Shown: piece after piece, positions 30,311 through 36,300 of the stretch
How positions within the stretch are numbered: the first letter of the stretch is position 1
Layout: every line of letters begins with the position of its first letter
Origin: Marchantia polymorpha subsp. ruderalis
Taxonomy: Eukaryota > Streptophyta > Marchantiopsida > Marchantiales > Marchantiaceae
DNA: 64,000 nucleotides
Direction: 5' to 3'
Assembly (NCBI GenBank): GCA_037833965.1
Contig: AP031358.1
Coordinates: 21,274,001-21,338,000 of the forward strand
Program-made: the position numbers and the translations under genes
The notes under the pieces: model-generated
The model's database searches: none
The model's input: the letters and a program-made list of their open reading frames with translations, nothing else
Told to the model about the DNA's origin: nothing

Positions 30311-33300
30311 ATGGCGACTGACAGTAGCCTCCACCAGTTCGGCAACATTTTATTAGGCGGACGAGGTGGCATGGTGGGATTTCTCTTCCTCAGCCCTTTT
30401 TAAAATAATTTTAAACATGGTTCCGGAGAGATGTTTTTTGTTTTTGTTTTTGTTTTTGTTTTGCTGTTGCGTCGCTAGTTTCTCGAGCACTCAAATTTCT
30501 TTACACTGCTGACACGCAGTTCGTATTGGGACTTTCATCCCCGTATTTATGGTGTCTGAACTTATGTGTACTAGAGCCCAACAATTTTAGTCTATCCTAC
30601 AAGCGAAGCTTGTTTGAGGCGGCAAGTGTCCATTTTTATTTAAGAGGTCGTGCAGGCATGAGGTGGATGACTGATAATTATCTGTCACACTGCCCTGAGA
30701 AAATAGTCCAAACCTTGCCGCTATTAATTGAACACCGATGGACTTATTGACGGCAACCTCTTATTGCACTTGAAGGTCTTGAACCTCAACCTCAACTTCA
30801 GAATTCTTTGCTCGCACGGAAAAACCTGAGTCATGATAACGTATATGATATCTTGGAATACAAGATATCATATACGTTATTTGAAGCTGAATATGGAGCT
30901 TCAGCTTCAGCTTCAGTTTTTGCACAGCCTGATGGCTCAAGTTTTGAGTTCAAGATTTTGAATCACCAATGATCTAACAGCGTCCAGATATGTCTACACT
31001 GAATGTTTTCCATCTTTCAGCCCTCTTGAATTGTCAGCTCTACACGCTCTTAAACAGTTTTGACTAGAAATTCGCTAGGACCACTGAGGAATTCAAGAAA
31101 TAGTTGATGCTTGCAACGATACACTTAAGTCAAGTCGAAAGCATCAGCAGGAAACGATGGGAAGCTTACAGCTTCAAGATGAACGGATTTTCTCTTTCTT
31201 GCTGATATCACGATTATATTGGAGAGCCTCTGCCTTGCCGTATCTTGTACGTAATTTTGAACATTGGGACGAAGCTAGCTTACGTGTTTAAGAGAAGAAA
31301 AGGATTGCCTGCTGGATTTCATTACTCACCTTCTATTCTGGAGGCCAGGTGACGATGATCATGTTGACTTACCTTCGGTCTTTAATACTCTTGATTATCT
31401 TTTTCCAATTTCTTCAAACCTGAAACGGTGTCGAAAAGTTAATTACGCTCGTAAATTACTCTCTGCCTGGGGATGATACAAGCTAGATTTTCAATGTTAA
31501 AGAATGACACGCGCTAGATTCTGAACTTTCAGTTCATTTCTTTATTCCAGATACCCCTGACCTAGAGTTATGAACTGCTTACTGAAAATCTTTCTGAATG
31601 TATCTGCAGAACCCAGGGCAACTCAAAATACATCCAGGTGGTTTTGTTTGGAAGAAAACGGGAGGTGGAAAAGTTGTCGATGTGGCCAAGGCAGATATTA
31701 CTAGTTTGAGCTGGACTAGGCTGCCCAAAGGCTATCAGCTCGGAGTTAAGATGAGAGCAGGTTCGAATGTAAAGTTTAGCGGTTTCAGGGAACAGGTACG
31801 TTCGTCTCTTATGGACAAGTAATTCTTGCATACCGTGCCTTGGTATATCAGATACCCCAGTTCTTCGACAGATCATACTTTACTACAAAAGAAAATGAGT
31901 TTATCTTCAAGTGGGGGAAAAGAAGCCAGTTGTTGTTGCATTCAATGTTTGTACTCCAGCCATTAAGTCACGGCGGTCTTAAGATTTCTATCTTGCAGCA
32001 TCGTGAGCTTGTCAGATGAAGCGCATTCATGTAGATCATTGTTAAATTGAAAGGTTGAAAGTTGAATGTGATGCAAAGCACTTTGTGGCTTGGAAGTGGT
32101 CTTCATATGTAGTTATTGGGAAATAATATTGTGAGAATACGTTGAGTGCTAACGTCGGTTTCTCGTTAATATCGGCAAAACCTCTGCAGGATGTGGCGAG
32201 CTTAAATCCGTTTCTGCATGCGAACATGGGAATAAGCCCAGATGAAAAACCACTAGCAATAAGTGGTCGCAACTGGGGTGAAGCCGAGTTGGAAGGTACA
32301 CAAGTGTCCACGTTATGTCACTCTATAGTCAGAGATACCATTCTAGTAATCTGTTGGATTTCATGCTTTCAGAGTTTGGAGAGCCTCTTCTCAGGTTGTA
32401 ACCTTTTGCCACTCAATGAAAAGTTGAAGTGAAGAGCTTTTTTGACGTGGATGCTTTGTATTTGTTCTGCAGGAAACTTGCTGTCCTTTGTTGTTGGCGG
32501 GAAGCAGGCCTTTGAAGTGTCCATATCAGATGTGAGCCAAACCCAGATGATGGGAAAGAATGATGTAGTTTTGGAGTTTCATGTGGACGACACCACTGGA
32601 GCTAATGAGGTATTGTGAATATATATCTTTTTTGATTAAGAGTTTTATGGCTATTATATGCACCTTGAGCAAATTATCAGTTGGTCGTTGTATAATTGTC
32701 CCACGTGGCAAATTCGTTCGCAGAAAGATACTTTGATGGAGTTAAGTTTCCACGTTCCTAGCACCAACAGCACGTACGTCGGCGACGAGGAAAGACCTTC
32801 GGCACAGGTTCGCATGTTCTGCCTCTGCATTGTACCCATGTCGAAGCACATGAGAATGTATTGCTGTAAGTGCACATTCGTTGTGAAGCCAAGTATCGAA
32901 TCTTACACTGTAGATGCAGTCAGTAGTATCAAATTCGTAAAACTTACATTTGTTTGCTGCAAGTAACGTTGATGTGCATCAGGCCTCATGCATGGTTTTG
33001 ACATTGTGAGGGGGATCAGGTGTTCTTTGAGAAGATTAAAGGGCTCGCAGATATTTCCACTCAAGGCACAGATGCAATTGCATTGTTTGAAGTGATAACT
33101 GCGCTCACCCCAAGGTAAGTCATATGTCTGCATTGATTGTATTAATTGTTCTTCCAGCTCTCAATTGCCAGGTCTTCCGCGAGAAGATCCTGTCGATGGC
33201 GGACGTTGGGCCCTCGGGTGCAGAAGCAATATGTATGTTCGTTGAAGTTGGCATCCTTACACCAAGGTATACATATGTCAGAAGTAGGGGGTGTCTAAAC

Positions 33301-36300
33301 AGTGAATCACATTCACGTGAGCCGTAAACCATTATCCTGTTTGGCAGTAGAGGTGCTACTCTGCTAACGGAATGGTGTTAGGAAATGCATCTAGGTTTTT
33401 AAACTCTGGCTGACTTTTCTGCCGTACGAGTTTGTATTGGGTTTTGCAGAGGACGATATAATGTGGAGCTTCACATGTCTTTCTTGCGACTTCAAGGACA
33501 AGCCAATGATTTTAAGATCCAGTATAGTAGTGTCGTTCGTCTATTTATACTGCCGAAGGTCGAAATTCAAACCCTGAATGTTTGTTTTTCCTCAAGTTCG
33601 TACGAGCATTGACTCAATCATAGAGATAGTCAGGAGAAGCAAATTTGATGTTTATACTTAAAAGGTTCCTTGGTTGCTGATTAGTAGTATCTTCTGATTT
33701 ATCAACTTATGAACTATCTCTGCTGACTATGAAGCATATGCTTTCCTTCACAAGTTTTAAGCCTGAGAAAGTTGTTCATATATGGGTTTGTGGGTTCATA
33801 GTGCTGTATAGTAGTAGAAATAGCCTTATGTCTTTATAATGACGTGCTTACCTCATCATAAATGTACGTGTGTTCATTTCTTTTGTGTCTGTGTGCTGAA
33901 TTGTGTTGCTTTTTGGCAGTCAAATCAACCTCACACTTTCGTTGTCATCACTTTGGATCCCCCCATCCGTAAGGGTCAAACATTTTATCCGCACATTGTT
34001 TTACAGGTGAGATCTAAGTTTGTTGACTCCTAATTGCAAGTCTAGTCTGACAAGTTTCTACCATGTCAGGCTACAGTTGCTCTTCTCTGCATTCTTTCGG
34101 TTTCTTCCTCTTGTTGTTCTAGATACAAACTATTTAAAATCAGCATCATTTGAGTCGATTTATAACACGTTAGTGGGAATTCTAACAACTTTTGGCCCTA
34201 TCTGACGCACTTGGCTGCTTTGTGTCAACAGTTTCCTTCCGAAGAAATAACCGAGTGCAGTCTCTCGATGAACGAAGACCTTCTGAATACTAAATATAAG
34301 GACCGCTTGGAACCCTCGTACAAGGTATGAAAGTAATTCTGTTGTAACAGATTTTTGGAGTTCACAAGACTATATGATTATAGCTTTTTCTCATGCAACT
34401 TGACTCGCTTTCACAGGACCTTTCACACGACGTCTTCACCCAAATATTGAAAGGATTGTCCGGTGCGAAGGTAACCCGACCTGGGAAGTTCCGCAGTAGT
34501 CAAGATGGATATGCTGTAAGGGCATCTCTGAAGGCGGAGGAAGGCACTTTGTACCCGTTGGAGAAGAGCTTTTTCTTTTTGCCCAAGCCCCCTACTCTTA
34601 TATTGCACGATGAGGTATGTGAACGCACGCACTTTCCGTCCTCTCCCTTGCAGCTCGCAAGGCTAGGCTTTAAGTTTTTAATCCGCATACCTTGGGCCGC
34701 TTCAAAGTATTTTGAGTGTTATTTTTAGCCAATTTCACTTGTCATCCTAGATAATTTCTTAGATCTTAAAAATTGGCGTTATTTCTTTTGACTATTCTCT
34801 CTTACTATCTTACATCACAATCGCTTTTGGTATAGAATTCTTCTGTAAACGTCATTGATTGTTCATGTGAATCTCTTACGCAGATCGAGTATGTCGAATT
34901 TGAGAGACATGGTACGGCCGGAACAAGCAGTATATCATCGCACTATTTTGATCTGCTTATCCGTCTAAAGAGTGAGCAAGAGCATCAATTTCGCAATATC
35001 CAGAGGAACGAATATCACAATCTTTTTGACTTTATCAGGTAATATGAGGTTAGAATGTAATATCATTTTTTCATTAAGATTTCTATTTCAGGCATCAGTG
35101 TTTTCTCCTAACGATACGGTATGAGTTTGATCTCTCGCCTCTTGTAACTTATTCAGAGACTTCTGTACTCGTGAGGACTTCTGGAGTGGTGACGCATACT
35201 TGTCCGTCACTTAGCTGACTTGGTTTTTTGCCTCAGCTCTAAGGGCCTGAAGATCTTGAATCTGGGCGATGTCCAAGGCGCAAGTGGCGTGGCAGCCGCT
35301 TTAGCAGGCTCAGATGACGAAGGTGTAGATCCACATCTAAATCGGATTCGTAGTGCTAGAGGTGAAGGCGGAGGTGACGGTGGTGGTGAAGACAGCGATG
35401 AAGAGGTAAGTGCACCTGACTTTTTAGCATGAACTTTTGTGCTCGAGGTCCCAGTTCAAAGAAAGTTTTGAACAGCTTGAAGTAACTTTCATGGCAATAG
35501 TACGGGAGGGAAGATGTAATAACATAGTTGTATATTACGGCCAGCATCAATTTTAACGACAAATCTTCGAGCTTTGCTCGACCTTATAGATAATATGAGG
35601 CCACACATGAAATACTTGAATTCTGACGTAAACGGCTTGTTCTTCCCTCAGGATGAAGACTTCGTTGCTGAGAAGGATGACGAAGGGTCACCAACGGATG
35701 ACTCTGAAGCTGAGGAACCGGATGCAAGTGATAGTGGTGGGGACGAAGACGCTGAGGAAGACGAAGACGAGGATGAAGTAAGTACCTGTGCTTCGCGTTG
35801 ATCACTTGGAATTTACTTATCACAGTTCGGTAATGTAAGATATGTGACGTGATGTTCTCTTTTATTTATACATATGGCTTTGGCGTGCCCCGTTTCACAG
35901 GATGAAAGACCGGCTAAGAAAGAGCGCAAGAAACGGGAACCAGCTGCTGCTAAGCCTGGAAGAAAGAGAAAGAACAAAGAGGAAGGTGAAGGAGGGAAGA
36001 AGACCAAGAGGAAGAAGAAAGATCCAAACGCTCCAAAGCGCGGTCTGTCAGGGTTCATGTATTTCTCTCTGTCGGAGAGAGAGGTATGTAATGCGATTTT
36101 AGTACATTCATTGATCCCGTTTGGCGGACTCTGACCTTTTGTAGACTTGTGTAAAAAAAAAACAGAAGTTCAAAAATATCCTCTGGAGCCCTTTTTTTCG
36201 TTGTTGTGTTGGATTTATTGATTGATTGTCAACTATTTCTGAAGACATCGCCGATACCCTGCAGAATTTGAAGAAAAGTCAGCCGGGGCTTTCCTTCATT

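Follow-up and report, generated by a model that had tools for sequence, protein, structure and literature searches.

The histone chaperone FACT is commonly regarded as a single, general-purpose complex. A locus in the liverwort Marchantia polymorpha subsp. ruderalis raises the question of whether a plant can make two kinds of it from a single gene. Here we analysed 64,000 nucleotides of contig AP031358.1 (the window), in which the gene for the FACT subunit SSRP1 carries two neighbouring versions of exon 6, 6a and 6b, which a first-pass annotation had taken to be mutually exclusive. We consider it likely that they represent an old tandem duplication within SSRP1 that has been kept as a mutually exclusive pair with a steric block, and with 6b as the default. 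The duplicated pair is probably functional, and the structure of the locus provides strong grounds for exclusive use. Such splicing would provide the plant with two versions of an essential protein that handles histones and, if this reading is true, two SSRP1 forms from a gene found once in the genome would amount to a way of specializing FACT in which no gene is duplicated. In the haploid-dominant, genome-editable Marchantia, the effects of deleting either exon would be directly visible.

A duplicated exon in an SSRP1 gene found once in the genome

The splice model was made by hand and comprises 16 coding exons per isoform, with exon 6 present in two versions (Table 1). Six Pfam families match both isoforms, and in both the order is POB3_N, SSrecog, PH1_SSRP1-like, Rtt106-like middle domain and HMG box, which places the product among SSRP1 proteins. 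This architecture, which is that of known SSRP1 and Pob3, and the alignment to solved structures of both bear out the identification as a FACT subunit gene; the difference from the known proteins is the alternative start of the PH1 domain, which was not seen in the 118 other proteins, among the best 120, from which the exon region was excised. An annotated protein of Marchantia paleacea (P0001; Mapa_013144) agrees with the 6a isoform of the window at 659 of 665 residues, and thus supports the hand-made model as a whole.

Table 1 Features of the SSRP1 locus (positions in the window)
Feature	Position	Strand	Remarks
SSRP1 gene, start codon to stop codon	30311..36642	+	Hand-made splice model; 665 aa
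Exon 5	32724..32807	+	Splice model; phase-0 end; upstream partner shared by 6a and 6b
Weak 6a acceptor	33001..33019	+	TTGAC branch-point motif and purine-rich tract
Exon 6a, divergent alternative	33020..33114	+	Splice model; identical in annotated M. paleacea protein P0001
Gap between 6a and 6b, 57 nt	33115..33171	+	Contains 6a donor and branch-point motifs
Exon 6b, canonical	33172..33266	+	Splice model; 31/32 identical in Calypogeia fissa P0003
Exon 7	33450..33558	+	Splice model; takes phase 2 from 6a or 6b alike

No second SSRP1 gene that could be the source of 6a was found in the 241-Mb genome of the species with three kinds of query. Searches with 478 of the 665 amino acids of the protein gave 12 matches, all inside the SSRP1 gene; the 6a peptide, at E values of up to 10, matched only itself (E 5.6e-14) and 6b (E 0.17); and the 247-nt stretch from 6a through 6b matched only itself. 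Three primer sequences of M. polymorpha reference genes are present in this genome without mismatch, in keeping with the species. Elsewhere in the gene, intron 1 holds a perfect 20-bp inverted repeat (arms at 30836-30855 and 30861-30880, with a 5-nt loop), and a genome-wide pattern search that allowed up to one mismatch reported only its two arms.

On recheck, the anatomy described by the first-pass annotation proved exact: two side-by-side exons of 95 nt each, 57 nt apart, which both enter in phase 0 and leave in phase 2, have intact AG/GT borders and encode 32-residue translations that align without gaps. The peptides are identical at 15 of 32 positions, and 20 of 32 have a positive BLOSUM62 score. 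At the DNA level, 49 of 95 nucleotides are identical (18/32, 22/32 and 9/31 at the first, second and third codon positions, respectively), and 6a contains neither a stop nor an indel. The two exons are therefore adjacent and homologous, equal in length and phase, and flanked by intact splice sites.

The reading frame is lost when both exons are used, as had been proposed: inclusion of 6a and 6b together yields a product of 326 aa, compared with 665 aa for either exon alone. Skipping of both leaves 195 aa, so that joint inclusion and joint skipping alike destroy the product, and retention of the 57-nt gap brings a stop directly after 6a (224 aa). The 665-aa frame survives only one-of-two splicing, and the two full-length isoforms differ at 17 of 665 residues.

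Splice signals and the choice between 6a and 6b

The 57-nt gap had been held to be shorter than plant introns normally need. It is probably too short to be spliced, by a norm checked within this gene only: the introns elsewhere in SSRP1 measure 92 to 1236 nt, and the gap is the shortest inter-exon space. It contains two candidate branch points, the motifs TTGAT and TTAAT, at distances of 22 and 31 nt from the 6a donor. In animals, a spacing between donor and branch point of under about 50 nt is taken to leave too little room for both splicing complexes (PMC5740500, PMC7969005), and both distances, measured to what are motif guesses, fall under this animal-derived threshold. Branch points that lie 25-41 nt from the donor enforce the exclusivity of OGDH exons 4a and 4b (PMC7969005), and in a catalogue of human mutually exclusive exons such steric interference was seen in 57 clusters (9%) (PMC5740500), which makes it one known exclusion route among several.

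With its branch-point motifs no more than 31 nt away from the 6a donor, the gap would make the joining of 6a to 6b hard. By analogy with the animal cases, the exclusivity of the pair would most likely come from steric interference, backed by the frameshift of wrong products. The spliceosome would connect exon 5 to 6a or to 6b, and either of these to exon 7, with 6a-to-6b joining blocked by crowding in the gap; the frameshifted products of double inclusion or skipping would probably be cleared by nonsense-mediated decay, which would act as a second filter. A choice governed by competing RNA structures, as in mutually exclusive exons with a docking site and selectors, was rejected: no inverted repeats of at least 11 nt occur between 32700 and 33560, and the fold of 32960-33300 is no better than that of shuffled sequences (z 0.63).

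As far as the available text goes, the pair resembles OGDH 4a/4b and members of the human catalogue in being homologous neighbouring exons with frame-breaking joint inclusion, and, as far as the motifs here stand for branch points, in the spacing of less than 50 nt to the upstream donor (PMC7969005, PMC5740500). The described cases are animal genes, whereas this is a liverwort chromatin gene, and experiments located the branch points of OGDH, whereas those of Marchantia SSRP1 are motif guesses from DNA.

Plant titles on exclusive or duplicated exons were few in our literature searches, and no title on an exclusive or duplicated exon pair in SSRP1 was found among publications, mostly outside subscription journals, on SSRP1 splicing, Marchantia and plant exons. 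A MADS-box gene of Picea abies is said to have mutually exclusive exons, one of two being chosen. A one-of-two exon choice like that proposed for 6a and 6b is described for plant VHA-H (PMC6829547); there the label derives from classified annotated transcripts, and the available text describes no homologous tandem pair. SSRP1 of Brassica napus (BnaC07g25280D) is tabled among genes with line-specific splicing events (PMC7548069), and the entry, in the available text, names neither the type of event nor a duplicated exon.

The splice sites of the two exons are unequally strong. The acceptor of 6a has a tract with 29% pyrimidine, the lowest of the 16 acceptors of the gene (others, 47 to 76%), compared with 71% at 6b, and the A of its TTGAC motif, at 33001, lies 18 nt before the last intron base. 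The donors rank in the opposite order, with 6a (AAG/GTAAGT) matching the consensus at 8 of 9 positions and 6b at 5 of 9. We propose that 6b, with its better acceptor, would be the default and yield canonical SSRP1, and that 6a, with a purine-rich weak acceptor and a near-consensus donor, would need activation; the exon choice would thus be regulable. The pattern at 6a suits an activation-dependent exon, although an acceptor this poor could equally be the mark of an exon that is little used.

The donor ranking, and the use of 6a in the annotated M. paleacea protein, would also fit a reversal of roles in which splicing is equally exclusive but 6a is the main and 6b the minor form in Marchantia. 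Given that 6b has the better acceptor tract and is the type carried by the other plants among the best 120 proteins, we judge such a reversal improbable and retain 6b as the likely default. Two further AG dinucleotides lie close to the acceptors: use of the one 9 nt upstream of the 6a acceptor (33011-33019) would add the in-frame residues GDQ, and use of the one 14 nt upstream of the 6b acceptor would break the frame.

The exon and the start of the PH1 domain

The exon had been assigned to the linker ahead of the SSRP1 middle domain. It is not just linker: Pfam PH1_SSRP1-like begins at residue 210 and the alignment to the human SSRP1 middle-domain structure 5UMS begins at residue 192, so that the second half of the exon forms the start of the PH1 domain. 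A pure linker swap is ruled out by the Pfam boundary. The exon most likely supplies a lead-in helix and the first strand of PH1. In the AlphaFold model of P0001, which is of the 6a type, residues 190-201 form a helix and residues 213-220 a strand; in the model of the 6b-type Calypogeia protein P0003, the helix spans 191-201 and the strand at 213-220 is absent, in a stretch with pLDDT below 50. Both models (mean pLDDT 53.9 and 51.8, respectively) are too poor for a comparison of shape, and the difference carries no weight.

Residues D203, F215 and L221-T222-P223 are invariant across an alignment of 39 of the best 120 proteins (P0001 included), and 6a keeps them. V217 and A220 of 6a were not seen in the other 118 excised rows; rows with insertions were excised from the 3′ end, which leaves the V217 and A220 columns in register. 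Compared with yeast Pob3, 6a is identical at 13 and 6b at 12 of 32 positions, indicating no special kinship of 6a; compared with human SSRP1, the counts are 11/32 for 6a and 15/32 for 6b. The substitutions in 6a score above random against Pob3 (P 0.008); against human SSRP1 the result is non-significant (P 0.09).

SSRP1 dimerizes with SPT16 through its N-terminal domain, and its middle domain contacts histones. The suggestion that exon choice tunes SPT16 pairing finds no support here as a direct effect. Exchange of 6a for 6b would alter the helix that leads into PH1 and the first PH1 strand, and would adjust middle-domain contacts and not SPT16 dimerization. The swap could plausibly alter how the middle domain packs or the surface that it presents.

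Selection, age and distribution of 6a

By the Nei-Gojobori method, the comparison of 6a with 6b shows saturation at silent sites (pS 0.85), with pN at 0.38, and differences are concentrated at third compared with first-plus-second codon positions (Fisher test, P 0.004). We simulated a neutral 6a branch and a 6b branch with silent changes only, 20,000 times at each of 9 branch lengths, in a simple model with equal branches, local base composition and a fixed 6b protein. Under neutral decay, the pattern of identity by codon position seen in the exons arose with P no higher than 0.018; this test by itself is moderate, 0.018 being the value at the weakest branch length; when the same simulation was scored by the BLOSUM62 conservativeness of replacements, P was at most 0.00045. 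The simulation and the identity of the P0001 peptide indicate protein-level selection on both exons. With silent sites saturated and the protein constrained, 6a looks neither recent nor dying, and it appears to have been held as a protein for a long time. No figure for how far silent sites have diverged between M. polymorpha and M. paleacea was found in the available text of PMC7332582, PMC9985172 and PMC9516144.

These results bear on two other accounts of 6a. It could be a decaying duplicate that is no longer spliced, its likeness to 6b simply left over; its acceptor is the poorest of the gene, 14 of its 32 residues depart from the moss/lycophyte-type consensus, compared with 4 for 6b (hand count), and the other plants among the best 120 proteins carry the 6b type. 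The first-pass annotation had itself named a dying duplicate as the alternative. Decay sits poorly with saturated silent sites above a constrained protein, with a stop-free, indel-free exon between intact borders and with the same peptide in the M. paleacea gene model, and we regard it as a minor prospect.

Alternatively, 6a could be a poison or rarely used exon, the double inclusion or retention of which leads to decay and sets the amount of SSRP1 and not the type of protein. The frameshifted 326-aa product, the stop at 224 aa on gap retention and the strong donor would suit this role, but it offers no reason for a conserved, conservatively substituted peptide (for which the scoring against Pob3 is the weaker support) or for the exact length and phases of 6b; we consider it slightly less probable still. 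A maintained, mutually exclusive pair is the reading that we prefer.

P0001 is the best independent support for 6a. It contains all 32 residues of the exon, and its 6 differences from the 6a isoform all fall among the 633 residues outside it. By its listing P0001 is a gene model, and it may be a pure gene prediction that favours the strong 6a donor. For the wider distribution, we took the best 120 of 734 proteins found and excised the exon-6 region by means of the TPRG motif in 119 of the 120; the exception, P0030 (Ceratopteris), is of the 6b type by eye. Within this set only P0001 is of the 6a type, and Calypogeia and all other plants are of the 6b type. A region search with 6a gave 2 candidates, of which only P0001 carries it, and a short-fragment search with 6a gave 3, none of which scored. 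Because the protein database shows one representative per 90% cluster and just 17 of 665 residues separate the isoforms, 6a isoforms may hide within clusters, and absence elsewhere is weak evidence. In related species, the two members of the pair are thus seen in separate proteins, the 6a type in M. paleacea and the 6b type in Calypogeia.

Calypogeia and Marchantia 6b have M214 and V216 in common, and 6a has the L and E of moss and lycophyte rows at these positions; some angiosperm rows, Nymphaea among them, have M214 as well. In an exon tree of 32 residues and 19 chosen rows (6a, 6b and 17 of the best 120 proteins), the free tree has a p-AU of 0.835 and a tree with 6a outside 6b plus Calypogeia, the preferred placement, has a p-AU of 0.277. 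A duplication inside Marchantia only is not rejected at 5% (p-AU 0.054, p-KH 0.092, p-SH 0.11). The duplication may be older than the split of Marchantia and Calypogeia, for which the tree is a weak hint. A further reading, which we put forward tentatively and think unlikely, is a switch that predates this split, with two spliced PH1 starts (for example, vegetative compared with reproductive or stressed) and two FACT complexes.

Two further proteins in the set depart from the usual form. In P0039, SSRP1 isoform X2 of Cryptomeria japonica, GANE runs directly into VFREKI, as in an in-frame skip of exon 5, which suggests an old exon 5/6 border. P0002 of Adiantum nelumboides (811 aa) is a single annotated protein that seems to repeat the N-terminal SSRP1 half, through a gene-model artefact, an assembly artefact or a local duplication.
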